Shown here in pieces: positions 12,401 through 28,531 of a stretch of DNA of 64,000 nt. Each line of letters begins with the position of its first letter. Position 1 is the stretch's first letter. A model generated the notes under the pieces. That model worked only from the letters and a program-made list of their open reading frames with translations, did not search any database and was not told the origin of the DNA. This DNA comes from Streptomyces sp. NBC_00376 (GTDB lineage Bacteria > Actinomycetota > Actinomycetes > Streptomycetales > Streptomycetaceae): positions 2,914,001 to 2,978,000 of the forward strand of contig NZ_CP107960.1 of assembly GCF_036077095.1 (NCBI RefSeq), given 5' to 3'. Both the position numbers and the translations under genes were made by a program.

Positions 12401-13288
12401 GCCCGTTACAACGTCTACGACTCGCTGCTCAGCGAGTACGCGGCGATGGGCTTCGAGTACGGCTACTCGCTGGCCCGCCCGGAGTCGCTGGTCGTCTGGG
12501 AGGCCCAGTTCGGTGACTTCGTCAACGGCGCGCAGACCGTCGTCGACGAGTTCATCTCCTCGGCCGAGCAGAAGTGGGGCCAGACCTCCGGCGTCACGCT
12601 GCTGCTGCCGCACGGCTACGAGGGCCAGGGCCCGGACCACTCGTCCGCCCGCCCGGAGCGTTTCCTCACGCTGTGCGCGCAGAACAACATGACGGTCGCC
12701 ATGCCGACCCTGCCGTCGAACTACTTCCACCTCCTGCGGTGGCAGGTGCACAACCCGCACCACAAGCCGCTGATCGTCTTCACCCCGAAGTCGATGCTCC
12801 GCCTCAAGGCGGCCGCGTCGAAGGTGGAGGAGTTCACCACCGGCGGCTTCCGCCCGGTGATCGGCGACGACTCGGTGAACCCGGCCGAGGTCCGCAAGGT
12901 CGTCTTCTGCGCCGGCAAGGTCTACTACGACCTGGAGGCCGAGCGTACGAAGCGCGGCGCCACGGACGCTGAGGCTGCCAACACGGCGATTATCCGTCTG
13001 GAGCGCCTGTACCCGCTGCCGGGTGCCGAGATCCAGGCCGAGATCGCCAAGTACCCGAACGCCGAGAAGTACCTCTGGACCCAGGAGGAGCCGGCCAACC
13101 AGGGCGCCTGGCCGTTCATCGCCCTGAACCTGATCGACCACCTGGACCTGGCCGTCGGCGCCGACGTCCCGCACGGTGAGCGCCTGCGCCGCATCTCGCG
13201 TCCGCACAGCTCGTCCCCGGCGGTCGGCTCGGCCAAGCGCCACCAGGCCGAGCAGGCCCAGCTGGTCGCCGAGGTCTTCGAGGCCTGA
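9473..13288 (+). CDS. kgd: multifunctional 2-oxoglutarate metabolism enzyme (decarboxylase/dehydrogenase E1 with E2-type acyltransferase domain)
   Basis: About 1271 residues; the actinobacterial SucA/OdhA/Kgd enzyme of the TCA cycle. In order: N-terminal helix [19 protein letters not shown]; an Ala/Pro-rich linker (about residues 60-140); a lipoyl-less E2 acyltransferase domain ending near [12 protein letters not shown] (about residue 360); then the thiamine-diphosphate E1 part with [26 protein letters not shown] and [16 protein letters not shown]. It converts 2-oxoglutarate to succinic semialdehyde or, with E2/E3 partners, to succinyl-CoA. GTG at 9473 follows GGAAGAGGG and gives the usual N-terminus; earlier in-frame starts (TTG 9422, GTG 9446) are less convincing. 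A strong terminator follows. Confidence 0.95.
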
Positions 13289-13380: not shown

Positions 13381-16374
13381 CTAGACGACCGGGGGTTCGA
13401 AGTCCCAGTACGGGCGGTTGCGCGAGCGGGCCGAGACCGTATGGACGTGCTGGGCACCGAGGGTGGCCACCAGGTCGCCCAGCGCCTCGTTCTCGACCTT
13501 CTCGGCCCGCTGCCGCTCCCGTACGCCACGCAGGTCCGCGGCATGGGCGATCCGGGCGGAGAGGGTCAGCGGGTGGGTCCGCCCGAGGGTCTCGGTGGCC
13601 CTGGCGATGACCGCGGCCGTCAGCGAGGCCGCGGATTCCGGGTCTCCCACCAGGTTGCGCAGCGCCGAGGCGTTGATGGCGCACCCCAGGGTCCAGGGGT
13701 GGTACTCGCCGACGGCCTGTGTCAACGCGGCGAGGGCCCCTTCCAGGAGCGTATGGGCCTGGTCGCGCTCGCCCACGTTGCGCAGGATCAGTGCGTGGTT
13801 GCCCCGCGTTCCCGCCACGAAGGGGTGCTCCTCGCCGAGCATGCTCAGATAGCCGTCGATGACCTTCTCGCTTATGCCCCTGGCCTGGTCGATGTCCGCG
13901 TGCTCGCGGGCGAAGCAGCTCTGCCCGGCCGCGAACATCATGGTCAGCGGGTCGCCCTCGCCCAGCACGCGCTCGCACCGCTCCAGGACCCGGGTGAACA
14001 GGGTCGAGGCCTTGGCGCGATCTCCCGAGCGGTAGTGGCACAGCGCGAGGTTGTACTCGGCCCGCAGCGTCTGCGGGTTGTCGTTGCCGAGGACCCGCCG
14101 GTGCACCCCGACGCTCTGGTTCTGGAGCGACATCCCGTCGCTGTAGCGACCGAGCAGGCGCAGGTCGGTGGCGTAGTTGGTCTGGGAGGCCAGGGTCCAG
14201 TTGTGCCGCTGGCCCAGGAACTGCCGACGGGCTTCCAGGGTCCGCCGGTTGAGCTCCAGGGACTCCTGGTACCGGCCGAGGAGCCGCAGCGAGACGGCCA
14301 GGTTGTTCTGCGCGTTGAGCGTGCGCGAGTCCTGGTCGCCCAGCAGTTCGCGGTAGGCGGCGAGGACCCAGCCGGACATCTCCAGCGCCTCTTCGTACCG
14401 GCCGAGCCCGCGCAGATCGGCGGCGAGGCCTCCGGCGGCGCGCAGATGCTCCAGATCCTGCACGCCGCGCTCGGCGCGCAGATGGTCCACCGCGGCACGT
14501 TCGATCACTTCCGTACCGGCGTAGTCGCCGACGGCCCGCAGCAGGTTGGCGTAGTGGTAGCTGAGGTCCCAGATCCTGGGGTGGTCCTCGCCGAGGAGTT
14601 CCCGCCAGGCCTTCATGGCGCGTTCGCCCAGCTTGATGCCGGCCCGGTACTCGCCGGAGAGGTACATGTAGCGCAGGCAGTTGAGCACCAGGGACTGCAC
14701 CGCCGGGTCGGTGCTCCTGAGCACGTCGGCCCATTTCAGGTGCGGGGTGATCTCGGCGTAGGCGGGCCACAGGCGGGTGTCGCTGGGCCTGCCGGGGTCC
14801 GCGGCGGCGAGGGCCCGGCGAACCACGTCGATGAACTCCCGGCGGTCCCGCTCGGTCATGTCGTGGCCGACGATCTGGTGGACCATCCGGTGCATGTAGA
14901 GCGATTCTCCGGGGGACGCCTCGTCGAGGACCGACTCGTGGGACTCCAGCCGGACCACGGAGTACTGGCGCAGCTGTGCGATCGCCTTGTTCCACAGCAG
15001 CGGGTCGTTCATCAGGCCGGACACCTGTTCCGGCAGCTCGCCCGCGGGCATTTCCTTCAGCAGCCGCACCGGAATGGAGCCGGGCGCGAAGAAGCTGCAC
15101 AGGCGGAGCAGATCGACGGACTCGGGGACCGTGTCCTTGAGCTTGTTCAGCAGTATCGACCATGCGGTCTGGAAGGCGAGCGGGAAGTCGGCGGAGACCT
15201 TGACGACGTCCTGGTCGATGCCGCCTTCGAGAAGTTCGATGTACTCCTCGACCGACAGGTCGGAGTCGTTCAGCCAGCCTGCGGTCTGGTCGAGGAGGAG
15301 CGGAAGGTCTTCGAGCGCCTCGGCGAGCCGGTCCGCTTCGGCGGGGCTCAGGCGCGGTGCGCGGCGCCGGACGAAGGCGACCGACTCGTCCCGGTTGTAG
15401 ACGGGCACCTCGACGAGGTTGCTGTTGTGCTCGCCCCACTCCGGGTTGCGCGAGGTGATGAGGACGTGTCCGGGGCCGGTCGGCACCAGGTCCCAGATGT
15501 TCTCGGGCTCGTCGGCGCCGTCGAGCACGAGGAGCCAGTGGGAGTGCGGTTCACCGCGGCGCAGCGCGTCCCGCACCGCGCGCAGCCGCTCGCCGTACTC
15601 GACACCGGTGGACAGGCCCAGTTCGGGGGCGAGTTCGGCGAGCCGCTGGCGATAGAGCGCACGCCGGTCGGCGGGCACCCACCAGACCACGTCGTACTCG
15701 GAACCGAAGCGGTAGACGTACTCCGCGGCCAGCTGGGTCTTGCCGACACCGGACATGCCGTACAGCGCCACGACCCCGGCGCCCGACCCGGCGTCCTGGA
15801 GAGCCTGGTACGCCTTGTTGAGCAGTTCCTCACGACCGGTGAACCGGGTGTTGCGCCGCGGTACCCCGCCCCACACCTCGGGGGTGTCGGCCGGGTAGCG
15901 GGGGCCCGGCCGGTGCTCGACCGGCTCGGGAAGCGGTTCGGTGGGCAGGCCGAGGCGGACGAGGAGCCGTCGCTCGGCCTCGTCGGCACCGACGTTGGTG
16001 AGGTCGGCGGTGCCGAGGACCGAGGTGGCGCCGGGCAGTGCCGAAGTGGTGAGGCTGACGGCGGCGAAGCGGTCGGGGTCGGGGGCGACGACCTCGCGCA
16101 GCGCCCTGTTCCACTCGTCGTGCGTGCGCGGGCCGAGCTGGAAGTACCAGTCGCTGAGGACCAGCAGGACGCGGCCCCTGGAGAGCGTCAGGTCGCGCAG
16201 CGACTCCTCGAGCGGCACCTCCACCGGTGGGTCCCAGCGCTGCTGGACGACCGTCACCCCGCGCCGCTCCAGGCGGTCCCCGATCCAGGTCGCCCAGGCG
16301 CGATTGAAACCGGCGAAACTGATGGTGACGGATTGCGCCCCGGTTGCTCCAACTTGCCTACGCGTTCCGGGCAT
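13381..16374 (-). CDS. fxsT: TIR-like / NB-ARC / TPR protein of an FxSxx-COOH system (FxsT-like)
   Basis: 997 residues. Residues ~13-140 look TIR-like (SVTISFAGFNRAWATWIGDR, then RGRVLLVLSDWYF and HDEWNRAL). The NB-ARC/STAND ATPase follows, with P-loop GMSGVGKTQ (206-214) and Walker B LLVLDGADEPE. From ~590 to the end there are repeated TPR helices (motifs such as LGRYQESLELNRRTL, NNLAVSLRLLGRY). This matches the TPR protein recurrent in FxSxx-COOH peptide loci. STAND proteins act as switchable oligomerising sensors; whether the TIR part has NADase activity is unknown. ATG 16374 has GGGAGAC upstream. It is the last gene of the minus-strand array that includes fxsA and fxsB. Confidence 0.85.
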   Translation of the reverse strand: MPGTRRQVGATGAQSVTISFAGFNRAWATWIGDRLERRGVTVVQQRWDPPVEVPLEESLRDLTLSRGRVLLVLSDWYFQLGPRTHDEWNRALREVVAPDPDRFAAVSLTTSALPGATSVLGTADLTNVGADEAERRLLVRLGLPTEPLPEPVEHRPGPRYPADTPEVWGGVPRRNTRFTGREELLNKAYQALQDAGSGAGVVALYGMSGVGKTQLAAEYVYRFGSEYDVVWWVPADRRALYRQRLAELAPELGLSTGVEYGERLRAVRDALRRGEPHSHWLLVLDGADEPENIWDLVPTGPGHVLITSRNPEWGEHNSNLVEVPVYNRDESVAFVRRRAPRLSPAEADRLAEALEDLPLLLDQTAGWLNDSDLSVEEYIELLEGGIDQDVVKVSADFPLAFQTAWSILLNKLKDTVPESVDLLRLCSFFAPGSIPVRLLKEMPAGELPEQVSGLMNDPLLWNKAIAQLRQYSVVRLESHESVLDEASPGESLYMHRMVHQIVGHDMTERDRREFIDVVRRALAAADPGRPSDTRLWPAYAEITPHLKWADVLRSTDPAVQSLVLNCLRYMYLSGEYRAGIKLGERAMKAWRELLGEDHPRIWDLSYHYANLLRAVGDYAGTEVIERAAVDHLRAERGVQDLEHLRAAGGLAADLRGLGRYEEALEMSGWVLAAYRELLGDQDSRTLNAQNNLAVSLRLLGRYQESLELNRRTLEARRQFLGQRHNWTLASQTNYATDLRLLGRYSDGMSLQNQSVGVHRRVLGNDNPQTLRAEYNLALCHYRSGDRAKASTLFTRVLERCERVLGEGDPLTMMFAAGQSCFAREHADIDQARGISEKVIDGYLSMLGEEHPFVAGTRGNHALILRNVGERDQAHTLLEGALAALTQAVGEYHPWTLGCAINASALRNLVGDPESAASLTAAVIARATETLGRTHPLTLSARIAHAADLRGVRERQRAEKVENEALGDLVATLGAQHVHTVSARSRNRPYWDFEPPVV

Positions 16375-16455
16375 TCAACCGTCTCCCTGCCTCGATTCGA
16401 GCCTTGTCAACATACACCGGAGCCTGGTCGCTCCGGCGGACAATCCCGGGGGTTC

Positions 16456-17871
16456 TCACGGCCTGTGCGGGCCGTTCCTCTGCTGCCATATCACCTTCGC
16501 GGTGGCCACGTATGCCTCCGCACGCGCGAGGTGCCCCGCAGGAGGCGGACAATCGTCCAGACGGTGGTAGAGCGCGATCATCTCGTTGACCAGCACCCGG
16601 CCCTCGCGGGTCAGCTCCGCCGATCCGGCCAGCACGGGGAGTACGGCTCCGACCTGTTCGCGGCAGCGGGCGTGCTCGGCCCAGGCCAGGTCGCGGTGGG
16701 TGACGCGGCGCGCGGAGAGCGCGAACCGCTGCCAGTAATCGGCGAGCGCGATGTGCGAGTAGGCGCCTTGGAGGAGGCCGTCGAAGGGGCGGGGGTCGGA
16801 GCGCCAGGGGGCGAAGTGGCGTGGGGTCGCGTCCTCGTGGTGCAGCGGCAGGAGGGCGCAGAGCGCGGACAGCTTGGTGTGCTGGAGTTCGTGGACGAGG
16901 GTGGAGGCGAAGTAGGCGGGGGTGGCCGGCCTGCTGCTGAGGACGGCACCGAACGCTTCCCGCCTGGTGCCGCTGCAGTGTGCCGTGCCCTCGCCGGCGG
17001 GCCCGGAACCGGGTGGCGGGCCGAGCGGGACGAGGCAGCGGAGCAGGACCGCCGCCTCGGTGAGGCGGTGCTCGCCGCCGATGGCGAGCAGGGGTGCCAC
17101 ACCGGCCCAGGACTCGGCCCAGGCCTTGCGTTCGTGGTCGTCGATATGGGTGGCGGCGCTCAGGCCGTGCCGCTGGAGTCCGCGGCCGTCGGTGCGGTAC
17201 GGGTCGACGTCGTCCAGGGGTACGGGGCCGATGCCCGACTGCACGGCGGGCAGGGCGAGCACCGGCAGCCAGCGCGGGTCGCCCGAGCCGGTCGTGCCGT
17301 CCGGGTGGGTGTGTGCCGATATGGATTCCTGCCCGGTCTCACGCATCGTCAATTCGTCGCCGGAGAAGGCGATGTCGACCGGCGCGGATGCTTCGGTTTC
17401 CGTGCGCAGGGCACCCAGGGTGGGCAGGGACAGGAGCCCGCCGTGCGCGGTGAGCCGGGTCGTGAACGGGATTCCGGCGCGGATCGCGGCCGCGGCGGCC
17501 AGGGCGCTCAAGTGGTCCAGGTCGGCCCGGAGTTCGGGGCCGGGACCGGGGCCAGTGGCGGGTCCGGGGCTGGAGAGACCGCGCAGGCAGCGCTGCGCCC
17601 AGGGGCCCACGAGGGGGTGCAGCAGGACGGTGCGTAGGGCGGTCCGGTCGGCGCGTTCGGCCCTCTCCAGCAGCGCCCAGTCCTGACGGAGGCGGTCGAG
17701 CGCCTGGGGCGGGAGGACGTCGGCGGGTGCCGCCCCGGCCGCGTCGAGCAGGGCCCGCAGCAGGAGGAGCCGTCGGGTGTCCTGATCGCGTACGAGCACG
17801 CCGAGGGTGTCGGCATCGCCCTCGGTGCGGCCGAGTTGACGCAGCATGTGGTCCGGGAGTGGGGGGATCAT
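16456..17871 (-). CDS. HEXXH-motif protein associated with FxsB
   Basis: 471 residues. The core motif is HELQH at 327-331 within STLVHELQHTKLSALCAL, matching the HEXXH-motif domain family that accompanies FxsB-type radical SAM enzymes. HExxH is the zinc-binding, catalytic signature of metallopeptidases, but activity of this family is not something I can confirm. The N-terminal half is Leu/Arg-rich and helical. The ATG at 17871 overlaps the fxsB stop (ATGA), so its translation is coupled to fxsB. A maturation protease for the FxsA peptide is one possibility; a modified substrate or scaffold is another. Confidence 0.82.
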   Translation of the reverse strand: MIPPLPDHMLRQLGRTEGDADTLGVLVRDQDTRRLLLLRALLDAAGAAPADVLPPQALDRLRQDWALLERAERADRTALRTVLLHPLVGPWAQRCLRGLSSPGPATGPGPGPELRADLDHLSALAAAAAIRAGIPFTTRLTAHGGLLSLPTLGALRTETEASAPVDIAFSGDELTMRETGQESISAHTHPDGTTGSGDPRWLPVLALPAVQSGIGPVPLDDVDPYRTDGRGLQRHGLSAATHIDDHERKAWAESWAGVAPLLAIGGEHRLTEAAVLLRCLVPLGPPPGSGPAGEGTAHCSGTRREAFGAVLSSRPATPAYFASTLVHELQHTKLSALCALLPLHHEDATPRHFAPWRSDPRPFDGLLQGAYSHIALADYWQRFALSARRVTHRDLAWAEHARCREQVGAVLPVLAGSAELTREGRVLVNEMIALYHRLDDCPPPAGHLARAEAYVATAKVIWQQRNGPHRP

Positions 17872-19067
17872 CGGCGTTCTCCTGCGGTTGCGTCGGACAG
17901 CCGGGCGGCGACATGGCGTACCAGCCGTTCGAGGTCGGCGCAGTAGACGGACGGGTTGGCGAAGCCGTTCTCTGCGCGGTAGCGGTGTGCGTAGTGGCCG
18001 CCGCCGCAGACGGTCAGCAGCGGGCAGGCGCGGCAGGTGGCGGCCAGCGCGTCGGCGCCCGCCCGGCGGGCGGCCACGCCGGGGTGGCGCAGGGCGTCGT
18101 CGAAGGTGTGGCGGAAGACGTCGAGCCCGGTGGCGGCGGCCGTGTCGTAGGCGGACTTGAGGGAGTCGACCTGCTCGATCGCCCCGTCGGTCTCGACCAC
18201 GATCGCGTCGACGGGATCGAGGCCGAGGGCTTCGGTGGCGCCGGGCAGGCCCAGCAGCAGGGCTATGCACTCCTCGAAGAGCCGGACCCTGGTCTCCCGC
18301 CGTCCGGTGCGCCACCAGCGGTCGAAGACGGTGGTGAGCCAGTCGCCGTACGGGGTCGGGCGGCCGGACGCGGAGCCCGTGCGCGGCAGGCCCGGTGGGG
18401 GGTTCGTCCAGTTGCCGTGCGGCAGCAGCAGGTCGATGGCCGGGGGGTGCAGGTCGAGCAGCGACTCGTACATCTCGATGGGGTCGGTGCGGGGGTCGAC
18501 GACGGTGAGGATGCCGGCGTACGCGTCGGGGTGCCGGTCGGCGAGGAGCCGGGCGCCTCGCGAGGCGGCGGGCCAGGAGGGGCGTCCCGCGTGGTCGGTG
18601 CGCTGGGTGTTGTGGGCGGCCAGGCCGCCGTCGAGACTGATGCCGATGCGTATGCCGTGCCGGGCGAGCGTGGCGGTGCGGGCCTCGGTGAGCAGGGTCG
18701 CGTTGGTCTGGACGGTGGTGTGGACGGTGCAGCCCGCGGGTGCCAGGCCGCGTACCCGGTCGGCGAAGGCGGCCAGCCGGTGGGCGCCCGCGAGCAGGGG
18801 TTCGCCGCCGTGCAGGACGAGCGCGACGTGTCGCAGTCCGTGGGTGGCCGCGTGTTCGGCGATGCGGTGCGCGGTGCGGTCCAGGACGGCGGGTGCGGCG
18901 GCGGCCGGGCGGTCGCGCCAGGTGCGGTCGGGGCCCGCGTAGAGGTAGCAGTAGCGGCAGGCGAGATTGCAGCGGCCGTGCACCTTGACGATGAACTGCC
19001 CGAAGGAGGGCCCGGGTCGGTTCGGCCCGGCACATGGGGGCGTTTTCGGCGTCGCCTGTCGAGACAC
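17868..19067 (-). CDS. fxsB: radical SAM/SPASM protein FxsB-like
   Basis: About 399 residues. The radical SAM [4Fe-4S] motif is CNLACRYC (Cys33, 37, 40 from the chosen start) preceded by FIVKVHGR. GGEP and SLDGG follow. The C-terminal SPASM-like part has CRACPLLTVCGGGHYAHRYR and GFANPSVYCADL, which are hallmarks of FxsB. Family knowledge: such enzymes install three-residue cyclophane crosslinks in the C-terminus of a small partner peptide, here the gene 196 bases upstream. The GTG at 19067 leaves the usual short lead before the motif; GTG 19169 would add 34 low-complexity residues. It overlaps the HEXXH gene. Confidence 0.9.
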   Translation of the reverse strand: MSRQATPKTPPCAGPNRPGPSFGQFIVKVHGRCNLACRYCYLYAGPDRTWRDRPAAAAPAVLDRTAHRIAEHAATHGLRHVALVLHGGEPLLAGAHRLAAFADRVRGLAPAGCTVHTTVQTNATLLTEARTATLARHGIRIGISLDGGLAAHNTQRTDHAGRPSWPAASRGARLLADRHPDAYAGILTVVDPRTDPIEMYESLLDLHPPAIDLLLPHGNWTNPPPGLPRTGSASGRPTPYGDWLTTVFDRWWRTGRRETRVRLFEECIALLLGLPGATEALGLDPVDAIVVETDGAIEQVDSLKSAYDTAAATGLDVFRHTFDDALRHPGVAARRAGADALAATCRACPLLTVCGGGHYAHRYRAENGFANPSVYCADLERLVRHVAARLSDATAGERR

Positions 19068-19263
19068 TCCCGCACCCCCGTGCCGTTCGCATCCGCCGGC
19101 ACGGCCCCCGTCGCCGCCCCGAGGGGAGTATCCCTGGCTCGCCGCGGGGACAAACCCGTGCCCTGTCACGATGTCCTGTTCATCCGGGCCACCGGACCGA
19201 AATCGTGCGGCCCCGGCGCCGTCCCACCGGGCCGGGCCGCGGCCGGAAGGAGACGGCGGCGGG

Positions 19264-19482
19264 TCAGAAGGAGTTGTCGAACCCCCACAACATCTCCCGC
19301 GGCTGCTCGACCCGTCCGCGCAGATCCGCGACCACCTCGGCGAGCACCGGATGGTCCAGTGTCCGCAGTGCCTCCAGATCGAGCGCCAGCAGGTCCGGCA
19401 GCGCGTCCGGTCCGCCGGACGGGCCGTCCGGCGGACCGCCGTCCGGGATGTCCGTGTGCACCGTGCGCACCGTCTCGTTCAT
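19264..19482 (-). CDS. fxsA: FxSxx-COOH-type precursor peptide (FxsA-like)
   Basis: A 72-residue peptide. A Gly/Pro-rich N-terminus is followed by the conserved leader block LPDLLALDLEALRTLDHPVLAEVV and then a C-terminus ending REMLWGFDNSF. The leader and its position immediately upstream of fxsB identify it as the radical-SAM substrate. The family motif is F-x-S-x-x at the carboxyl end. Here the equivalent position is F-D-N-S-F, with Asn in place of Ser, and a Trp precedes it. The ATG at 19482 has a strong GGGGAGG ribosome-binding site 4 bases away. The carboxyl-terminal tail is the probable modified core. Confidence 0.85.
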   Translation of the reverse strand: MNETVRTVHTDIPDGGPPDGPSGGPDALPDLLALDLEALRTLDHPVLAEVVADLRGRVEQPREMLWGFDNSF

Positions 19483-19737
19483 CACGCCTCCCCGTAACAC
19501 CCCTCGCGCCCGCACCGGTGCGCTCGCCCTTGAGCGCCCGGCCGGGCCCGTGTACCTGATGTCCTGTGCGCCGGCACGCGTCCCGCGTACCGGCCGCCAA
19601 TGTACGGATGCCCCGCAGGACCGGGGCTACGCCTTGGCGAAGATGCCGTCGAGCGGCGTCGGTCGTGCGCCGGTCGCACCGCGGCGGCCCGCCACGCGAA
19701 GCCCCACGTCGCCCGCCCCGCGCCGTCCGGCGCCCCG
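19483..19737 (-). other. gap between the vWA gene and fxsA
   Basis: 255 bases without a supported gene. It ends in the fxsA ribosome-binding site and may carry a separate promoter for the peptide cassette, but I see no clear -35/-10 pair and no strong terminator hairpin. Confidence 0.4.
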
Positions 19738-22700
19738 TCAGCGCTCCAGCTCCGCCAGCCGCTCGGCGGTCGCGCCGCCCGCCGATCCGCCGCCGTCCGG
19801 CAGCTTGCGCCATTCCTGGCGGGCCGAGCGGTACGCGTCGCGTGCGGCCCGGGGGCGTCCCGCTCGCTCGTACGTCATGCCCCGCCAGTGGTTGGCCGTG
19901 GCCCCCAGTTCCACCGCTTGCCAGACCTGCTGCGGACTGTCCAGCTCCGCCTCCGCCCGGCCGGCCGCCTCCGCCGCCCCCCGGAACGCCTCGGCCGCGT
20001 CGTCGAGCCGGGCCGGGCGCTGGAGCACCCGGGCGGCGTCCAGGTGGGAGCGGCCCAGCTCCAGCCAGCAGCTTGCCTCGGTCAGCGGGTCGGCCGCCTC
20101 CTGGGCCGCGAGGCCGAAGAGGTGCTCGGCCTCGCGGAGGTCGACCCGGTCCTCGGTGGCACGGTGCCGGAGCATCAGTGCGCGGCCCAGCATCAGCAGC
20201 CGCTCGGCCTGGCGGGTGCTGCCCGCCGGCGTCTCCGTACGGCAGTCGCGCAGCACCCGGATCGCGGCGCCGATGTGCGGGCGGCCGTCCGGCAGCCGGG
20301 CCCGGCGCAGCAGGGTGCCGCCCCATTCGGCGAGCAGGTCGGTGTGGGCGCGCGAGTCGCGGGGGACGTCCCGGGCGGCGCGGGCGAACCAGTCGGCGGC
20401 GGCCACGAGTTCGTCGGGCTCGCCGGTGTGCTCGTACCGGGCGGCGCGGACCCGGCCGGCCCTGATCCGCAGCGCGGCGCGCTGCCGCTGATCGCGTACG
20501 GTCGCCAGGGCCTGTTCGACGAGTGTCGCGGCCTCGTCCGGTTCCTCGCCGGAGCCGAGCAGGGCGTCCACCAGATCGAGCAGGACGCGCACCTCGGTGC
20601 CCAGGGTGTGCCGGCCGCCGCCCTGTTCGAAGGCGGTGCGCAGGGAACGTGCGGCCTGGCCCGCGTACACCCGGGACTGTTCGGTGTCGGCGGTGGCCCC
20701 GGCCAGCTTCAGCATGGTCCTTCCGTGCGCCAGGGGCAGGGTTGTGGGGCGGTTCTCCTGGTCGGGCCAGACATCGGCGAACGCCTCCAGCATTCCGCAC
20801 GCGGCCTGGAGCAGGGCGGTGTCGCCGTCGAGCCGCCACTGCGCCTCCAGGGCCCTCACCCGTTCCAGGGTCAGCCGGAGGGCCTCGGCGGGGTCCAGGC
20901 CGGGGGCCGAGCAGGCGGCCGTGTACTCGCGGTCGGCACGGCGCAGCAGCTCCAGCGCGCCGCGCCGGTCGCCGCGCCGCCGCCGGTCGTCGGCTGCGGC
21001 GTGCAACACCTTGGCCAGTACGGCCCGTTCGCGTACCGCTGCGGGTTGCGCGGCGGCCCGTTCGGCGGCGTACTCGGCCTCGCGGAGCAGTTCGGCGTCG
21101 CCCTGGACCTCCCACAGCCGCAGCACGCAGCGGGCGTATTCCGCCCACAGTGCGGGGTCGGTGTCCGGTTGCTCCTCGCGCACGGCGGCGCCGCGCAGAA
21201 GCTGCACGGCGTCGATGAGGTACTGCACCATGCTGTCCGATTCGAACTGCCGCAGGAGGGCGCGGGCGCTCTCCACCGCGGTGTTCGGGGTCCGTACGGG
21301 GCTCGGGTGGCCCCCGCGTCCGGTCCGCATCACGAACTGCTCGGGCAGGGGCATGAAACGCTCCAGTACGCGGACCGCGACCTCGGCGAAGGGGTGGGGG
21401 ACGCGCGACCCGCCGCTTGCGCCGCTCTCCTCGTTCTCGCCACCCTCCTCGATCCCCCCGTCGGGCGTGCCGTCCTCCAGGGGGTCCGTACCGGCGGTGG
21501 CCGGTGTGGACGGGTATCTGCGTTCGTGCCGGCGTTCGCCGAGCTGGGCGAAGGCCAGGGCCGGGAAGTTCGGCCCGCCCCTGCCGAACCGCTGCTCGAT
21601 GTACTGCGAACAGTGTTTGAGCACGAGCAGCGCCTCGTCGCGGCCCAGCGGGCCGAGCAGCGCCTCCCGGACGCCGGGCACGAATTCGTACCACTGGCCG
21701 TCGTGCTCACCGCCGTCCTCGTTCCTGCTCCGCGTCAGCAACCCGCTGAGCAGCACCTCGGCGAGTTCGGACGGGCCCGAGTGGGGCAGCATCGTGCGCT
21801 GCACCAGCTGCATCACCGGGAGGTGCAGCGGGGCCGCCGCGAGGTAGACGGCCAGTTGCCCGGCGGCGGGTGAGGCCGCCGAGCGGAAGCGGCTGACCAG
21901 CTGGAGCGAGGAGAGTCCATCGCCCGCACGCTGCGCGGCCGCCGCCGGGTGATCGGCCCGCACCCAGCCGACCGCGCCGGAGATCTGTCCCGATCCGGTG
22001 CCGGAGAGCAGCCGGGCCCAGGCCGCCAGCGCCCCTTCCACCGGCGGGAGAACGGGTACGGCGAGGGCCCCCGGGTGCACGGCGGGGCCCGTACCCGGCT
22101 GCTCCACGACCTTGAGCACGGCGGCTCCGCCGGGTCCGTCGCCCCGGGACAGCGAACCGTAGGTGACCGGCAGTCTGGTGCGGTTCCACATCCGCTGCGG
22201 CAGCGGCTGGAGCACGGCGGCCGGGGCCTGCGCGGCCAGCTGGTGCAGCAGCCGGTGGGCCCGGCCGCTGTGCCAGAGCGGACCGGCGCAGTCGCTGACC
22301 AGGACGGTGACCCGGCGGCCGGTCGGATCGCTCAGCCGGTCCGCGGAGTTCAGCGGCGCCGCGGCCGGGTCGGGGCTGCGGCTCACCGCGGCCGCGCCGT
22401 CGGGGCCCTGGTGCAGATAGCGGACCTGCACGTCCCGGAAGGCACCCAACTGAGCGAATATCTGCTGGAGTTCGCCGAACATCCGGTCCCAGACCAGCAT
22501 CGAGGACGAGGCGTCCATGACGCACTGCAGGACCGCCTCGCCCCGGGACACGCCACGGAACACCGGAATGATCAACCCGCCTGCGCGGGCGCTGAGTTCG
22601 GCGGTCGCCGTCTCGTCGAGGGTGCTGCGCAGCGGCGGCGACGCGGGGTGGTAGCGCTGCAACGGCCTGAGTGCGCGCTGGAGTTCGAGGGGTGCGGGCA

Positions 22701-23364
22701 GCGCCGGGGCGGCTGGCACACCGAAGGCGAGGGCGGCCGTACGCCCCTTCCGGGCAGCGCCCGTGCCCGTGCCCGACGGGCCGCCGGGGCGGGCGCGGTC
22801 CGAGGGTCCGGTACGCGGTACGGGGTAGAGCGTGATCCGCCGGTCAGGGTCGCCGGGGTCCGCCCGTGGCAGGGGTTCGTCGCCCGGGGCGTCGTGCGCG
22901 GGCTTCGCGGCGTCGGGCCCTGGGGCCTCGGGCCGCCCGCTCGACGGCGGCTCCGGGGGCAGGCGGACACCCGGAATGTGCCCCTGCCCCCCGGTCACGG
23001 TGTCGGCGTCGGGGTCGGCAGACGGCGCGTCCGGGTGACGGGCCCAGCGGGCCAGCCAGAGCGCGTCGCGCAGCTGCTCGACGTCGGGGTCGAGCCCGGC
23101 CTCGCGCAGCCGCGCCACGAAGGCTGGGAAGAGCCCCGCGTCGTCGAGTCCCGTCCCATGCGGCACCACAACACCGTCGTCGCCGGAACCCGCCTCACGC
23201 GGCACAGCAACACCGTCGTCGGGCCCCGTCCCGCCCAGCACCGCAACACCGTCGTCGTCGGAACCCGCCTCACGCGGCACCACAGCCCTCTCCCCCGCCA
23301 CGCCGTCGCCGTCGCCGGGGTGGTGTTCGCCGTCCGGTCCGTGTCTCGCGCCGGCGCCCGCCAT
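19738..23364 (-). CDS. vWA-domain and TPR protein of a VMAP ternary system (SAV_2336-type)
   Basis: 1208 residues. The N-terminal ~75 residues are a degenerate acidic repeat (PREAGSDDDGVAV-like units). Residues ~78-110 (LFPAFVARLREAGLDPDVEQLRDALWLARW) match the N-terminus of SAV_2336-type proteins. A von Willebrand A domain follows, with MIDAS D284-x-S-x-S288 in CVMDASSSML. The C-terminal third is TPR-like helices. In vWA/MoxR/VMAP systems the vWA protein couples the AAA ATPase to an effector. ATG 23364 sits 8 bases after the MoxR stop, with GAGGTGAT as ribosome-binding site. Confidence 0.85.
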   Translation of the reverse strand: MAGAGARHGPDGEHHPGDGDGVAGERAVVPREAGSDDDGVAVLGGTGPDDGVAVPREAGSGDDGVVVPHGTGLDDAGLFPAFVARLREAGLDPDVEQLRDALWLARWARHPDAPSADPDADTVTGGQGHIPGVRLPPEPPSSGRPEAPGPDAAKPAHDAPGDEPLPRADPGDPDRRITLYPVPRTGPSDRARPGGPSGTGTGAARKGRTAALAFGVPAAPALPAPLELQRALRPLQRYHPASPPLRSTLDETATAELSARAGGLIIPVFRGVSRGEAVLQCVMDASSSMLVWDRMFGELQQIFAQLGAFRDVQVRYLHQGPDGAAAVSRSPDPAAAPLNSADRLSDPTGRRVTVLVSDCAGPLWHSGRAHRLLHQLAAQAPAAVLQPLPQRMWNRTRLPVTYGSLSRGDGPGGAAVLKVVEQPGTGPAVHPGALAVPVLPPVEGALAAWARLLSGTGSGQISGAVGWVRADHPAAAAQRAGDGLSSLQLVSRFRSAASPAAGQLAVYLAAAPLHLPVMQLVQRTMLPHSGPSELAEVLLSGLLTRSRNEDGGEHDGQWYEFVPGVREALLGPLGRDEALLVLKHCSQYIEQRFGRGGPNFPALAFAQLGERRHERRYPSTPATAGTDPLEDGTPDGGIEEGGENEESGASGGSRVPHPFAEVAVRVLERFMPLPEQFVMRTGRGGHPSPVRTPNTAVESARALLRQFESDSMVQYLIDAVQLLRGAAVREEQPDTDPALWAEYARCVLRLWEVQGDAELLREAEYAAERAAAQPAAVRERAVLAKVLHAAADDRRRRGDRRGALELLRRADREYTAACSAPGLDPAEALRLTLERVRALEAQWRLDGDTALLQAACGMLEAFADVWPDQENRPTTLPLAHGRTMLKLAGATADTEQSRVYAGQAARSLRTAFEQGGGRHTLGTEVRVLLDLVDALLGSGEEPDEAATLVEQALATVRDQRQRAALRIRAGRVRAARYEHTGEPDELVAAADWFARAARDVPRDSRAHTDLLAEWGGTLLRRARLPDGRPHIGAAIRVLRDCRTETPAGSTRQAERLLMLGRALMLRHRATEDRVDLREAEHLFGLAAQEAADPLTEASCWLELGRSHLDAARVLQRPARLDDAAEAFRGAAEAAGRAEAELDSPQQVWQAVELGATANHWRGMTYERAGRPRAARDAYRSARQEWRKLPDGGGSAGGATAERLAELER

Positions 23365-23371
23365 CAGCCCA

Positions 23372-24403
23372 TCACCTCGGCCGGTCGAGTCGCTGGATGA
23401 GCAGGTCGGCGAGGCGGTCGCGGCCGGCCGGGGCGGCGGCGTCGGTGAGGTAGATGGCGTTCAACAGCTGGTCCGTGGCGAGGAGTTCGCTGCGGGACCG
23501 CTCCAGGAAGTGGGCGATCAGGTCGTCCCCGGAGCGCGCCGCCTCGTCGCCGAGGTGGGCGCGCACGAAGGTGGCGAGGCGCTGGTGGTCGGGGCGCCCC
23601 AGCTCCAGATGGATGCAGCGGCGCATCAGCGGCGCCGGGAAGTCCCGCTCCCCGTTGCTGGTGAGCACCACGAACGGGAAGGCGGTGCACTGCACCCGGC
23701 CGCCCCGCACCGTCACCTTGTTGCCGTCGTCGTCGAGTACCCGCGCCTCGCCGTCGGGCAGCCGGTCGGCGATCCGCTCCAGCTCCGGAATGCCGAACTC
23801 GCCCTCTTCCAACACGTTGAGCAGGTCGTTCGGCAGGTCGATGTCGCTCTTGTCGAGCTCGTCGATGAGCAGCACGCGGGGCCGGTCCGAGGGAAGCAGC
23901 GCGGTGCCGAGCGGTCCGAGCCGGATGTAACTGCCCACATCGTCCGTGGCCGGGCCGGCGCCCGTGCCGGCTGCGGCGCTGTGCGCGGCGATCTGTACGT
24001 CCTGGAGCCGGGCGATCGCATCGTAGTGGTAGAGGCCGTCCAGCAGTGTCGTCCGGCTCACGATCGGCCAGCGCAGCACCCGGCCGAGCCCCAGTTCATG
24101 GGCGACCGAGTGAGCCAGCGTGCTCTTGCCCGCGCCGGGGGTGCCGGTGACCAGCAGCGGACGCCGCAGATAGAGCGCCGCGTTGATCATTTCGAGCTCC
24201 TCGGCGCCCGGCCGGTGGAGTTCGGCGACGTGCCGGTGGCCGCCGAGGCGCCGGTCGGCGGAGCCGTCCCCGTCCGGCTCGTCGGGGTCCGGGGCGCCAC
24301 GGCTCGCGAAGTCGCGCCAGGGCGGCGGCGGAGGCAACTGCTCGATGCCTTCGTGCGGTTCGCCGGCCCCTCGGTAGATGAGCCACTCGCTGGGTTCACT
24401 CAT
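23372..24403 (-). CDS. MoxR-family AAA ATPase
   Basis: 343 residues. An acidic, Pro-rich N-terminus (1-60) precedes the AAA core. Walker A is GTPGAGKST (87-95), Walker B VLLIDELDKS (178-187), and sensor 1 lies in VVLTSNGERDFP; the arginine finger region is PLMRRCIHLEL. MoxR ATPases remodel or insert cofactors in partner proteins together with vWA-domain proteins, and the vWA gene follows directly. ATG 24403 is preceded by GAGGAA. The gene belongs to the minus-strand array running from trypco1 to fxsT. Confidence 0.9.
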   Translation of the reverse strand: MSEPSEWLIYRGAGEPHEGIEQLPPPPPWRDFASRGAPDPDEPDGDGSADRRLGGHRHVAELHRPGAEELEMINAALYLRRPLLVTGTPGAGKSTLAHSVAHELGLGRVLRWPIVSRTTLLDGLYHYDAIARLQDVQIAAHSAAAGTGAGPATDDVGSYIRLGPLGTALLPSDRPRVLLIDELDKSDIDLPNDLLNVLEEGEFGIPELERIADRLPDGEARVLDDDGNKVTVRGGRVQCTAFPFVVLTSNGERDFPAPLMRRCIHLELGRPDHQRLATFVRAHLGDEAARSGDDLIAHFLERSRSELLATDQLLNAIYLTDAAAPAGRDRLADLLIQRLDRPR

Positions 24404-24491
24404 AACGTGTTCCTCGTCATCACTCGTCCGCCAGGGGCAGCAGTCGAACGTGGTTCACCGTAGTCATCCGGGACACCCCCCGAAAGAGGGT

Positions 24492-26558
24492 TCACGGAGC
24501 CTGCAACAACGGGCCGGGCGTGGGTGGTTGCGGGTTTCCGTAGACCAGGGCGATGCCGTCCGACCAGAACATGTCGGGCCTGCCCTCACGCACCCCTTTT
24601 CTCAGTTCATGGATCTTCTGCGGAAGCCGGTCGGCCACACCCGCCCCGTCGACCGTGTCGACGACCCGTAGGTGGAACTCGGTGCAGGACGCGGCCCGTT
24701 CGGTCCTCGGGCGCCGCCACAGGACCACGCCGAACCCGTCGTCGAGCACCCGCGCGAACCCCGCTACGCTCTGGGCGTCGGTCCGGCCGCCGTAGCGGCA
24801 GAACACCGGGACGGTCTCGTGCGGCAGTCCGCGCAGCTTCGCCGCCACGGGCACGGGTACCCGCATTCCGTCGTCGCAGTCCAGGACGGCGGCCCGGGTC
24901 GGACCGGTGTGGATGCGGTTCCAGCGCGCCTCGCGCTCCCGGACGGCGTCGTCGGACGGGGCGGTGCCCTCGTCCGAGCACCGGACGACCACCGGCCGCT
25001 GGACCCCGAGGGGCCGGCTGTCCGCGGGCAGCTGCCAGTTCTCGACCTCCAGGTCGAGCAGTGCCGGCGGCACCACGACCTGGAGGATCGCGGGGCTGTC
25101 GGGCTCGTCGCACATCCGGAACGCCTTCCCGAGGGAGGCGGCGAGCCTGGCCGGCAGTTCGTCGGCCCTGGTGCCCTGGTAGTTCTCGGTGACGGGCAGG
25201 TCGTCGGCGGTCATCCGGGCGACGACCCGCCAGTCGTACTGGTCCGGCTCCCAGGCGCGGGGCTCCAGATACAGCACGACGAACGTGGGGGCCCGCACCG
25301 GACGGACCGGCTCGTCGGCCGGTTCGGCCGTCCGCACGTGCTCGGCGCCCCGGTCGTACCGGCCCTGGTACCGGAGCCTGGCCATCTCTCGGCGGAACGG
25401 CGGTTTGAGCCGCTCTTTCGCGGTCTCGCGCACCCAGTCCCACAGGGCGTCCTCGGCGCGCTGGGTGGAGGGCACCACATAGGGGCGTTCGGCGGTGATG
25501 GCGCCCATGCAGTAGCGCAGGATCCGCTCCAGCGCCTCGTCGCCCTCGCGGGCGTCGTACAGGACGCCCAGCCCGTCGCGCCAGCCCCGGGGGGCCGGGA
25601 CGCCGACGGTCCGGTAGCCGTACCCGAGGCCGCCGAGGGTGTCGAGCAGGCTGCGGGTGCTGACCGGCGGCGGGAGCTTGGCGAGCCGGCCCAGCAGGTC
25701 GACGCGCTGCTGCGGGGTGAGCGCCGGGCCCGCCACGGCGCCCAGGTCCCGCTGGACGTCCGCCCAGGACTCCTCGTCGTCCACCGGGTTGTTGTGCCGG
25801 TCGGCGTGGTAGCGGTCGTGGGCGTGGAACACGGCCTGGTACGGGTCGTCGGACTCGGCCGTGGCGGCCTGGTCGGGCACGGGCAGCGTGCGCAGCCGCT
25901 CCACGCCGATCGCCGTACCGCCGTTCGTATCCATGGAGCGTGATTTGAGTACGCCGACGACCTCGCCCCTGGCCAGATCGACGACGGGTCCGCCGGACAT
26001 GCCCGCGTACAGCTGGCTCGCCTCGATCAGCACCTGTTCGTCGCCGTCGGCCCAGTCGTCGACGGTGCCCACCACCCGGCACTCCCGGCCGAGCCGCTTG
26101 AGCGCTCCGGCTCCGCCGTCCGCCCAGCCCGCGAAGTAGTACGCGCCGCGGTTCATGCCCGTGGAGCGCTCGCTGAGGTACACACAGGGGTGTTCGACGG
26201 GCCGCAGCAGCTGGATGAGCGCGAGGTCGGGGGCCGGCCAGCCGCCCGTGCCGGGCCACTCCTCGGGCAGGGCCGCCACGACCGTGCCCCCGACCCTGAC
26301 GGCGTCGCCGCCACGAGCGGTCTTGTAGACCACGTTCACCTGACGCCCCCTCCCCTCCATCGCCACGTGCGCGCACGTGAGGACCCAGCTCGGAGCGATG
26401 AAGAATCCGCTCCCCAGGAAGTCGCCGTCGGATCCTTCAGGGGCATACCCGGGCTCCGGACGATGGATGCGCACCGTGGCGTCCTTCACGAGGCGAATCA
26501 GCGCGGATTCGGCGCCGCCCGGCCCCTGCCACGCGCCCCCGCCCGGCGGCTGCGTCAC
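24492..26558 (-). CDS. trypsin-like serine protease with VMAP-type C-terminal domain
   Basis: 688 residues starting at GTG 26558, which overlaps the TGA of the trypco1 gene. The protease domain has a complete triad: His64 in VLTCAHV, Asp111 in APDLALIQL and Ser188 in AGMSGGPVVD. No signal peptide is visible, so it is probably cytoplasmic. A middle helical region (~285-360; PQQRVDLLGRLAKLP) resembles an effector-associated domain. The C-terminus (LQVVVPPALLDLEVENWQL, PVVVRCSDE, FGVVLWRRPR) matches the VMAP-C region as I remember it. This would be the effector of the vWA/MoxR/VMAP system. Its substrate is unknown. Confidence 0.83.
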   Translation of the reverse strand: MTQPPGGGAWQGPGGAESALIRLVKDATVRIHRPEPGYAPEGSDGDFLGSGFFIAPSWVLTCAHVAMEGRGRQVNVVYKTARGGDAVRVGGTVVAALPEEWPGTGGWPAPDLALIQLLRPVEHPCVYLSERSTGMNRGAYYFAGWADGGAGALKRLGRECRVVGTVDDWADGDEQVLIEASQLYAGMSGGPVVDLARGEVVGVLKSRSMDTNGGTAIGVERLRTLPVPDQAATAESDDPYQAVFHAHDRYHADRHNNPVDDEESWADVQRDLGAVAGPALTPQQRVDLLGRLAKLPPPVSTRSLLDTLGGLGYGYRTVGVPAPRGWRDGLGVLYDAREGDEALERILRYCMGAITAERPYVVPSTQRAEDALWDWVRETAKERLKPPFRREMARLRYQGRYDRGAEHVRTAEPADEPVRPVRAPTFVVLYLEPRAWEPDQYDWRVVARMTADDLPVTENYQGTRADELPARLAASLGKAFRMCDEPDSPAILQVVVPPALLDLEVENWQLPADSRPLGVQRPVVVRCSDEGTAPSDDAVREREARWNRIHTGPTRAAVLDCDDGMRVPVPVAAKLRGLPHETVPVFCRYGGRTDAQSVAGFARVLDDGFGVVLWRRPRTERAASCTEFHLRVVDTVDGAGVADRLPQKIHELRKGVREGRPDMFWSDGIALVYGNPQPPTPGPLLQAP

Positions 26559-27094
26559 GATCCGCTTCCGTCGTCCGGCCCGGTGCCGCCCGCGTGCGCC
26601 GGTGCGCCGGTGGGTGCCCCGGCGGACGGATCGGACGGAGCGGACGGGCCGGTGGGAGAGGACGGGGCGGAGGGAGAGGTGGAGGGCGTGGCCGGCTGCT
26701 GCCCCGGCGACTGCGCGGACACCTGCGGGTCGAGGGGCGGCCCGCCGCCGTTCCACGTCAGCGTGACCTTGATCGATCCCTTGGCCTCGCCGTCCGCGAG
26801 CAGCCCGACGACCTTGCCGGACTTCGCGGTGAGCTCGATCCCGAACTCGACGCTGACCTCGTCGGGCCGCACGGCCCGCAGCGGCTCGGCGAGCGAACGC
26901 GCCACGCTGGTCACGACCCCTTGCAGGCTCTCGACCCGGGCCTGCACCCGGTCCGCGATGTTCCCGGCGCCGATGTCCGCGAACGACGGGCCCGAGCCGG
27001 ACTGCGCCAGCTCCTCGGCGCCGGAGATCCGCGCCCAGACCTCCGTACCGTCGGGCATCTCAATGCGCGTAATACGGGCGTCACTGTCACCCAT
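26555..27094 (-). CDS. trypsin-co-occurring domain protein (trypco1, CU044_2847 family)
   Basis: 179 residues. Residues 1-115 form the conserved domain: an opening ITRIEMPDGTEVWARI, a helix (ARSLAEPLRAVRPDEVSVEFGIEL) and GSIKVTLTWNG at its end. The remaining ~60 residues are a Pro/Ser/Gly-rich disordered tail. This small domain is found beside or fused to trypsin-like proteases in conflict and signalling loci, and here it overlaps the protease gene by a GTGA junction. It probably acts as an adaptor for that protease. It is the first gene of the minus-strand array; the intergenic region upstream likely holds its promoter. Confidence 0.85.
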   Translation of the reverse strand: MGDSDARITRIEMPDGTEVWARISGAEELAQSGSGPSFADIGAGNIADRVQARVESLQGVVTSVARSLAEPLRAVRPDEVSVEFGIELTAKSGKVVGLLADGEAKGSIKVTLTWNGGGPPLDPQVSAQSPGQQPATPSTSPSAPSSPTGPSAPSDPSAGAPTGAPAHAGGTGPDDGSGS

Positions 27095-27300
27095 GAAACC
27101 CCCCGTTCCCCAACTACCCGCAGGCTAACGGCAGTACGCGTCCGATGCGAGGCAGATGGACGGGTACGCGGGCGGGTGCGCGGACCGGGACGCGGCAGTG
27201 GTGCGGGGCGGTTCCCGGCGGGTCGGCGGGGGTGAGTGGGGCCGGTCGCGACGGGTCGTGGAGGTGCCGGAGCGCGCGGCCCGGGGACCCGCTCCCGGCC

Positions 27301-27335
27301 TTCGTGGGGCTGCCACCAGGCATTAGGGTTGCCGC
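27301..27335 (+). promoter_or_regulatory. probable promoter of a leaderless transcript
   Basis: TTCGTG at 27301-27306 and TAGGGT at 27324-27329 are spaced by 17 bases, and the ATG of the next gene begins 6 bases after the -10. There is no ribosome-binding site, so the mRNA is probably leaderless. Confidence 0.5.
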
Positions 27336-27518
27336 ATGTACTTCACCGACCGCGGTATCGAGGAGCTGGAGAAGCGGCGAGGCGAGGAAGAGGTCACCTT
27401 CGAGTGGCTCGCCGAGCAGCTCCGTACGTTCGTCGACCTCAATCCCGACTTCGAGGTGCCGGTCGAGCGCCTCGCGACCTGGCTGGCCCGGCTCGACGAC
27501 GACGAGGACGAGGACTAG
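27336..27518 (+). CDS. small conserved acidic protein (DUF6104-like)
   Basis: A 60-residue protein beginning MYFTDRGIEELEKRRGEE, helical, and ending in an Asp/Glu run (LDDDEDED). I recognise it as a short protein conserved across Streptomyces (DUF6104-like); its function is unknown. There is no signal peptide or membrane segment. The start codon closely follows a -10 element, suggesting leaderless translation. It is convergent with the next gene, 16 bases from that gene's stop. Confidence 0.75.
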   Translation: MYFTDRGIEELEKRRGEEEVTFEWLAEQLRTFVDLNPDFEVPVERLATWLARLDDDEDED

Positions 27519-27534
27519 GGGCCAGGACGAACGG

Positions 27535-28392
27535 TCACCCGCGCCCGTCCGCGGGCTCCTCGGCGCCCCTCATCCGGCCGTAGGCGAGCCCGAGCGCCCC
27601 GTGCGCCAGCAGCAGCGCCCCCGCGAGCACCCATCCGCCGCGGCGGCGCCCGATCCCCCAGAGGACCAGCGGCAGCCCGGCCGCGAACTGGGCACCTGCC
27701 AGCGCACGGGCCCTGGGGCCGCGCATCCAGGGGCCGAGGCGACTGCTCTCCACCACGTCGAGTTCGGCTTTCACCGCCTCGCGCCGTCCGGTCCGGGCGA
27801 CCGGTTCCGCTTCGGTCCGGTCGTCGGCCGCCGCGTACAGCCGGTCGCCGGGCGTGTCCGGGTCCAGTCCGGGCGGCAGGATCAGCCCGATCCGGGTCAG
27901 TACGGCGAGCAGCCCGCGCAGCCGGATGCGCGCGTCGGCGTCCGGGTCCGGGCGGATCAGCTCTTCGAGCGCCTGGACGTCCAGCACGGGATCGAGGCCG
28001 AGCCGTTCGGCGAGCGTACGCATCGCCTCGTCCTCACCGGCCGGGGTGCCGTCCGCGAGCCAGACGTAGCCGACCGGGCGGCGGAATCCGGAGGCGAGCG
28101 TGCAGCCGGCCCGGTCGCCGTCCCACCACAGGGCGAGCACGGGCCACGCCGAGCCGACCGCGAGCGCGGCGGCCCAGCCGGCCACGACGCGGTCGACCGG
28201 CTCCACCACGTCCGCGGCACCGGCCTCCGCGACCGCGCCCTGCCAGGGCTTCCCCTCGGGCACGAGGACGGACCATCCGTCCCCGGCGGGAGCGAGCAGC
28301 ATCCGCTCGCGCAGCAGACGGGCCACCGGCCCTACGGTCTCCGGTTCGGCTCGGCACAGCAGCAGCGCCCCCGCGGGAGATGTCGCATTCAT
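27535..28392 (-). CDS. conserved hypothetical protein with C-terminal membrane segment(s)
   Basis: 285 residues. The N-terminal 200 residues look soluble and Leu/Ala-rich (LLLCRAEPETVGPVARLLRE, WPVLALWWDG, GYVWLADGTPAGEDEAM). The C-terminus has one or two hydrophobic helices (GAQFAAGLPLVLWGIG and GWVLAGALLLAHGALGLA). I do not recognise a functional family, though proteins of this shape are conserved in Streptomyces. It starts at ATG 28392, upstream of and divergent from the DUF4097 gene, so the shared intergenic region with AT-rich operator-like boxes may regulate both. Confidence 0.65.
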   Translation of the reverse strand: MNATSPAGALLLCRAEPETVGPVARLLRERMLLAPAGDGWSVLVPEGKPWQGAVAEAGAADVVEPVDRVVAGWAAALAVGSAWPVLALWWDGDRAGCTLASGFRRPVGYVWLADGTPAGEDEAMRTLAERLGLDPVLDVQALEELIRPDPDADARIRLRGLLAVLTRIGLILPPGLDPDTPGDRLYAAADDRTEAEPVARTGRREAVKAELDVVESSRLGPWMRGPRARALAGAQFAAGLPLVLWGIGRRRGGWVLAGALLLAHGALGLAYGRMRGAEEPADGRG

Positions 28393-28473
28393 GCCTCACA
28401 CGCTAGGGCAATTTGCCCATATTTGACGTTCTTTGACCCTCTCGGTGATCCGCCGACGGCATCGCGACGCGCC

Positions 28474-28531
28474 TTGACTTCCCCGATCCGCGATATATCG
28501 TGTTCACCAAGAGATGCGATATATTGCGTCA
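28474..28531 (+). promoter_or_regulatory. promoter with paired GATATAT operator boxes upstream of the DUF4097-PadR operon
   Basis: TTGACT at 28474-28479 and TATCGT at 28496-28501 form a -35/-10 pair with 16-base spacing. The -10 overlaps a near-palindromic GCGATATATCG box; a second box, GCGATATATTG, lies about 26 bases downstream. A/T-rich boxes like this stand out in ~72% GC DNA. The likely binder is the PadR-family protein encoded second in the operon. Confidence 0.6.

Follow-up and report, generated by a model that had tools for sequence, protein, structure and literature searches.

Do the genes for a VMAP-type ternary core and those for a radical SAM-modified FxSxx peptide form one system when they stand side by side, and which protein would then read the peptide? 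The question is raised by a cassette in Streptomyces sp. NBC_00376, within a 64,000-nucleotide stretch of contig NZ_CP107960.1 (positions 2,914,001 to 2,978,000; hereafter the window). The cassette runs from 27094 to 13381 on the minus strand, and all eight genes are present in the transcription order trypco1, trypsin-VMAP, MoxR and vWA (the last three being the core), followed by fxsA, fxsB, the HExxH gene and fxsT (the peptide block). A first-pass annotation made from the sequence alone had described eight genes running in this order and direction and had joined a ternary core to a peptide and its radical SAM enzyme; profile matches and motifs (Table 1) confirm the former, and site co-occurrence, a shared history and overlaps of fxsA with the vWA stop codon indicate that the two blocks belong together. 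We consider the eight genes very probably to be one functional unit, because the blocks co-occur at one site and have a common history that is not accounted for by rpoB.

The site is marked by the kgd-like 2-oxoglutarate dehydrogenase gene downstream of the cassette. Among 58 near-complete Streptomyces genomes, the kgd site carries both blocks in 26, the core only in 2 (G066 and G091), the peptide block only in 1 and neither in 29 (Fisher p 5.9e-13; the genomes are related, so that this and the following p-value overstate independence). Here, "neither" denotes no MoxR, vWA, fxsB or fxsT match over 45 bits within about 19 kb of kgd. The first-pass annotation had named rare co-occurrence of the blocks elsewhere as a ground against its reading; sites with both blocks stand at 26 against 3 with a single block. 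In G009, which is counted among the 26, MoxR is accompanied by a shortened vWA frame and VMAP is not matched, so that its core may be decaying; moving this genome to the peptide-only group gives 25, 2, 2 and 29 (p 7e-12). The DUF4097 flank is also found at 22 of the 26 sites with both blocks (weakly in G009), and kgd alone at the other 4. Twenty of the 29 "neither" sites have a DUF4097 match within 2.2 kb of kgd and are empty or nearly empty (L197 by a second split match), and at the other 9 the content differs, the flank is rearranged or no flank match was found (L195 is counted here despite a small split match near kgd).

A second census started from VMAP-C. The 58 genomes contain 91 VMAP-C places (95 rows over the cut-off, merged), and rows typed as FxsB, HExxH or FxsT lie no more than 16 kb from 40 of these; FxsB is among them at 19 places, in 18 of which it lies downstream on the same strand, 5.4 to 6.8 kb away. 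Conversely, 19 of the 65 FxsB places over the cut-off are near VMAP-C, i.e., 1 of 29 with a frame of at least 700 residues (G035, where a class B gene that is not fused sits in a long frame) vs 18 of 36 others. Three VMAP-C rows, FxsB rows under the cut-off and HExxH rows under 71 bits were left out, as were FxsT rows of other genomes and most stand-alone-type rows; 45 FxsT rows were typed among the matches listed (to about 742 bits). On inspection by eye, the listed FxsT and HExxH rows that were dropped are all more than 16 kb from any VMAP-C place. Two loci without a VMAP-C match (G009 and G088) were first scored as uncoupled, and MoxR and vWA were found when these loci were fetched.

Gene order is nearly constant as well. 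A further set comprises 77 loci, for 59 of which the upstream sequence extends to 9 kb or more. VMAP, MoxR, vWA, fxsA, fxsB, HExxH and fxsT are all found in 55 of these 59, and the order is the same in 54 of the 56 loci carrying the six genes from MoxR on. These loci were picked by FxsT similarity, partly by the tail pattern described below, and are near relatives; nearly all are named Streptomyces records, and the two others, Actinacidiphila (L144) and an actinobacterium (L128), both have the gene set. Class-wide, VMAP-C exceeds the cut-off in 54 of 296 genomes. FxsB exceeds its cut-off in 19 of the 30 VMAP-C genomes searched from other genera; FxsB and VMAP-C are no more than 10 kb apart in just two of them, G333 and G272, and are not collinear there (many of the 30 are drafts, in which nearness can be missed).

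The cassette occurs in three versions. Among the 28 peptide-block loci fetched, including the window, 12 have FxsB and HExxH (class A), 9 FxsB only (class B) and 7 HExxH only (class C); by class, the 26 sites with both blocks comprise 11, 8 and 7. The gene kgd was on the first stretch fetched in 25 of the 28, and it was seen in G115 and G106 when they were fetched from the kgd side; G088 (L053) has a class B cassette away from kgd, with fxsT before fxsB, and its own kgd site is empty. The core, FxsT and, in most cases, the leader are common to the three versions at this one site; the enzymes and the peptide tail change together. Protein distances of MoxR and FxsT correlate at 0.955 over 27 loci, and at 0.951 after regression on rpoB; with rpoB distances, the correlations are 0.35 (MoxR) and 0.31 (FxsT). 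Mean distances within vs between classes are 0.245 vs 0.368 for MoxR, 0.390 vs 0.572 for FxsT, and 0.080 vs 0.082 for rpoB. Because the MoxR and FxsT distances split by class and those of rpoB do not, the class follows the cassette, not the species tree, as expected if whole cassettes have been exchanged, or kept as old alternatives, at the kgd site. When the comparison is restricted to the 11 class A loci, correlations with rpoB rise to between 0.69 and 0.85, and MoxR shows partial correlations of 0.79 with FxsB, 0.62 with HExxH and 0.88 with FxsT. Three class B loci (L034, L046 and, with a TTG start, L035) and three class A relatives (L087, L111 and L141) have a chosen fxsA start that overlaps the vWA stop codon by 4 nucleotides, which argues for one operon in those six.

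Table 1 Features of the cassette and its flanks, with positions in the window.
Feature	Positions	Strand	Matches and remarks
trypco1 (trypsin-co-occurring domain 1), first cassette gene	26555..27094	-	PF19493 73 bits, NF041216 69 bits
trypsin-VMAP, N-terminal trypsin-like protease and C-terminal VMAP-C	24492..26558	-	PF13365 58 bits, PF20028 134 bits
MoxR-type AAA ATPase	23372..24403	-	AAA_5 PF07728 27 bits (cut-off 22); P-loop GTPGAGKS, DELD
vWA protein, SAV_2336 N-terminal domain, MIDAS DASSSM	19738..23364	-	NF041121 483 bits
fxsA, 72-residue precursor peptide, C-terminus LWGFDNSF, leader LPDLLALDLEALRTLDHPVL	19264..19482	-	TIGR04268 48.4 bits (cut-off 28)
fxsB, cyclophane-forming radical SAM/SPASM enzyme, start uncertain	17868..19169	-	TIGR04269 438 bits (cut-off 370)
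HExxH gene, probable α-ketoglutarate (aKG)-dependent peptide hydroxylase	16456..17871	-	TIGR04267 165 bits (cut-off 40)
fxsT, TIR/NB-ARC/TPR, tail RPYWDFEPPVV	13381..16374	-	NF040586 878 bits (cut-off 300); PF13676 (TIR_2), PF00931, PF13424 (TPR_12)
Codons of FxsT residues 987-993 (RPYWDFE), conserved tail	13396..13416	-	Top 7-residue conservation over 28 loci
kgd-like 2-oxoglutarate dehydrogenase, convergent flank downstream of the cassette, site marker	9422..13288	+	PF00676, PF16870, PF00198
DUF4097 "toastrack" protein, divergent flank upstream of the cassette	27145..29415	+	PF13349 38.7 bits; flank kept in relatives

The composite is not new. Kaur et al. 2020 (PMC7159879; this and the other cited papers are represented here by excerpts) found peptide-processing genes in about 20% of actinobacterial VMAP systems, and describe an FxSxx type that combines a radical SAM/SPASM gene and a vWA protein bearing only TPRs with a separate downstream TIR/AP-ATPase/TPR gene. 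Judged by its sequences, the window cassette is a member of this type: VMAP, MoxR and vWA genes follow one another 5′ to 3′ (26558-19738, minus strand), the trypsin domain in VMAP is accompanied by Trypco1 (PF13365 and PF19493), and the FxSxx peptide, radical SAM/SPASM, HExxH and separate TIR/AP-ATPase/TPR genes are all present, with TIGR04268, TIGR04269, TIGR04267 and NF040586 over their cut-offs and TIR, NB-ARC and TPR_12 domains in the last. In contrast, the excerpts of PMC7159879 describe neither a single chromosomal site with interchangeable versions nor a tail of FxsT.

Two further groups of systems share only parts of the cassette. Triceptides, which are three-residue cyclophane ribosomally synthesized and post-translationally modified peptides (MscB and YxdB), and ChlBH share the TIGR04269 family, and ChlB provides the nearest solved structure (9gm3, E 7e-72); the window differs in having FxsB and HExxH as separate genes and the peptide within a cluster of conflict-type genes. 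Stand-alone Fxs systems with a fused FxsBH share the FxsA, FxsB and FxsT families, but have no VMAP core nearby and a different FxsT tail. A second Fxs system, of the stand-alone kind, is present in the window's own genome (L070, C1:6828453; G000:C1:6828245-6836151), with an fxsA match, a fused FxsBH frame in whose hydroxylase-like part no HExxH motif was found, and a relative of FxsT that ends in another tail. None of the systems in PADLOC-DB (2023 version) was matched by the cassette proteins, single proteins of which gave weak or generic matches, e.g., FxsB to pVip (40 bits) as another radical SAM protein.

The peptide itself departs from the literal FxSxx pattern. Window FxsA ends in FDNSF, i.e., F-x-N-x-x, and Asn is the commonest residue at the Ser position in relatives (40/69). 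Most precursors of all classes have the leader LPDL..(V/L)DL..LR...HPVL, which is shortened or altered in some class B members and has other residues for HPVL in class C. Class A tails are mostly ..LWGF(N/D/T)(N/S)(A/S)(F/L), with WAF (L036) and NAF (L038 and L041) as exceptions; class B tails are mostly ..(A)YYEDAP and variants; class C tails have Trp followed by varied residues. NF041709 (YxD tail) is matched by 5/5 class B precursors, above the cut-off in 3, and 5/5 class C precursors match only the leader part of TIGR04268, weakly and under the cut-off (E 3e-4 to 0.27).

A link from residue i to i+2 is made between Phe and Ser by MscB and between Tyr and Asp by YxdB (review PMC11002830); because these links fit by position, FxsB would probably join Phe68 of FxsA to residue 70 (F-D-N). 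The HExxH protein matches the solved relatives 22nu (E 2e-25) and ChlH 8s5f (E 4e-6) through the HExxH region, and its HELQH and PWRSDPRP motifs align with both, as in aKG-HExxH peptide beta-hydroxylases, the name that NCBIfam now gives to the TIGR04267 family. It is a probable hydroxylase, not the peptidase releasing the peptide that Kaur et al. 2020 assumed (PMC7159879). For a related HEXXH enzyme, oxidative cutting of the backbone is described in addition to hydroxylation (PMC12636437), so some cleavage role may be retained.

The trypsin His/Asp/Ser motifs, vWA DASSSM and VLVSD, the P-loops, FxsB CNLACRYC and HELQH are all intact in the window. The vWA/TPR label of the first-pass annotation rests on NF041121, the MIDAS motif and the description of Kaur et al. 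2020; a Pfam scan of the protein gave no vWA match, and its TPR matches are all under the cut-off (TPR_12, E 0.07 for the whole protein; ARM_TT21, E 2e-5 for the C-terminal part), so that C-terminal TPRs are only weakly indicated. "Several overlaps" between genes was likewise too strong, as only two junctions (trypco1/VMAP and fxsB/HExxH) overlap, by 4 nucleotides each. In the window, vWA and fxsA are about 255 nucleotides apart, and no consensus terminator or promoter was found in this gap (among promoters, only sigma-70-type patterns were looked for). A near-palindrome around CTCAA(C/G)G(A/G)CGAG (about 19534 in the window) lies 36-53 nucleotides before fxsA in the window and five loci; the loci concerned besides the window are L077, L081, L082, L084, L142 and L090, and L077, L081, L082 and L090 have a copy 150-229 nucleotides before fxsA, the sole copy found in L090. 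The pattern CTCAA[CG]G[GA][CGT]GAG was dropped as evidence, being within 600 nucleotides of fxsA in 6/68 loci plus the window variant. On the upstream flank, a PadR-type gene comes after the DUF4097 gene.

Which protein reads the peptide? The first-pass annotation had proposed a signal read by the vWA/MoxR/protease part, with fxsT as a second sensor. A signal is plausible and already in print; the proposed reader was not supported, and the evidence points at least as much to FxsT, because its TPR region resembles those of kinesin light chain (KLC) and APPBP2, which bind short peptides. FxsT has the sequence features of a TIR-type NLR-like (STAND) receptor, i.e., TIR_2 with E87, which we take to be the catalytic Glu, NB-ARC with the P-loop GMSGVGKT, TPR_12 and, in the model, C-terminal TPR repeats. 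Its tail, RP(Y/F)WDFE, is the most conserved 7-mer of the protein, ranking first of 991 windows over the 28 loci; tails of the 77-locus set were not used here. AlphaFold2 gives the tail pLDDT values of 94 and 81 in the full model and 94 and 84 in a TPR-only model. The TPR region has its best sequence match in KLC, and the best fold matches of the models include APPBP2 and KLC, although both are eukaryotic, lack TIR and NB-ARC, and a common fold does not show a common ligand; families absent from the fold-match lists are not counted as excluded. When either model is aligned to KLC1 carrying a fused JIP1 or torsinA peptide, the alignment terminates at FxsT 993/994, opposite chain residues 711/712. 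JIP1 701-711 is the fused cargo peptide in the concave groove of KLC, and a KLC cis motif is displaced by W-acidic cargo (PMC6214655). The FxsT tail is thus predicted to occupy its own TPR groove like the fused KLC cargo.

We propose the following pathway, starting from the genes, motifs, co-inheritance, site and tail conservation computed above. FxsA would be made with its conserved leader, FxsB would probably crosslink Phe68 to residue 70, and the HExxH enzyme would probably hydroxylate a nearby residue, both activities being assigned from family knowledge. FxsT would be a STAND/NLR-like receptor whose KLC-like TPR superhelix is shut by its own C-terminal WDFE tail. We infer that FxsT binds the modified free C-terminus of FxsA as its ligand, which would either keep FxsT shut (a guard state) or open it by displacing the WDFE tail. 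MoxR, vWA and trypsin-VMAP would set the threshold by remodelling and cutting a partner. One unit with the modified FxsA tail as FxsT ligand is the best explanation of the whole, held tentatively and short of an even chance, and the gating of FxsT by FxsA is possible at no more than that strength.

Several observations weigh against this proposal. G106 has the peptide block at the kgd site without the core. The Glu at the TIR catalytic position is kept in 23/28 loci and changed in 5/28, so a TIR catalytic (NADase) output cannot be universal. The position of the FxsT tail is read from alignment end points alone, and alignments to APC/C subunit O, LGN (5a6c) and TTC7B (5dse) reach FxsT 991-997 opposite ordinary residues; because of this, the tail may be a plain structural cap. 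In L210 (G106) and L212 (G115), a second trypco1, an open reading frame without a Pfam match and a second FxsT-like gene lie between the class A fxsT and kgd, and these second FxsT-like proteins (L212 and L210) have WDFE and WNFE tails without an fxsA match of their own. Fused and stand-alone FxsT relatives end in another tail, mostly CD(I/V)(D/E)P.., and therefore a C-terminal tail may be general in the FxsT family.

The same alignments and the other tails of relatives would also suit the vWA protein as reader. Its MIDAS would capture the acidic or modified FxsA tail and MoxR would pull, freeing or silencing trypsin-VMAP and FxsT, with the FxsT tail as a mere TPR cap. Both metal-binding Asp residues are conserved in 27/27 loci; however, the DxSxS pattern is departed from in 3/9 class B and 6/7 class C loci (0/11 in class A), and G106 keeps fxsA, fxsB, HExxH and fxsT at the site without MoxR and vWA, indicating that the peptide block can persist with FxsT alone. 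We regard this alternative as rather unlikely. According to PMC10907252, Kaur et al. take VMAP as an invasion sensor that cuts the vWA protein, and PMC10907252 itself assigns the sensor role to the vWA protein.

Kaur et al. 2020 (PMC7159879) had already proposed the modified peptide as a signal, or as a toxin or secreted signal that amplifies the response. FxsA as such an amplifier would be cut from its leader by a protease of the system, all three trypsin motifs being found in 23/24 VMAP proteins checked, and FxsT and the core would respond to another cue, e.g., phage. There is, however, no transporter among the eight genes, and the HExxH protein matches peptide beta-hydroxylases, with oxidative cutting by its relative as the counterpoint; we consider the amplifier role improbable. 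That the blocks are unrelated neighbours sharing an insertion hot spot, as other inserts at the kgd site might suggest (a trypsin-NB-ARC-TPR gene, AMP-binding/thioesterase genes and a lone HExxH gene in three genomes), is very improbable given the site counts, the nearly constant order, the distance correlation and the fxsA starts within the vWA stop codon.

These inserts take different forms. A single 1093-residue trypsin/NB-ARC/TPR gene replaces the cassette beside kgd in L182 (G006). The two loci checked by Pfam, L189 and L190, carry the AMP-binding/thioesterase genes. In L184, L196 and L198 (G011, G072 and G080), an HExxH gene lies beside kgd without fxsB or fxsT, and in the two annotated loci, L184 and L196, a nickel superoxide dismutase gene and a CGNR/ABATE regulator are near it.

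What is new here is the fixed site with exchangeable versions, the strong support for one unit, the updated reading of the HExxH gene and the hypothesis of FxsT as a receptor with its own plug; in searches of the open-access literature, neither the kgd site nor the FxsT tail came up. In the literature covered, the functions of FxSxx peptides and VMAP ternary systems are predictions. A broader view, which we find doubtful, is that a crosslinked ribosomal peptide gates an NLR-like receptor in mutually exclusive lock-and-key cassettes at one site, like allorecognition or immune loci, with the FxsT tail as a cargo-like plug of its KLC-type groove and the modified FxsA tail as the key. The site comparison makes the predicted functions testable by offering the same flanks, three exchangeable chemistries, a natural core-less version and a mutable conserved receptor tail. 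If FxsA does gate FxsT, a post-translationally crosslinked peptide would be the ligand of a bacterial NLR-like protein.

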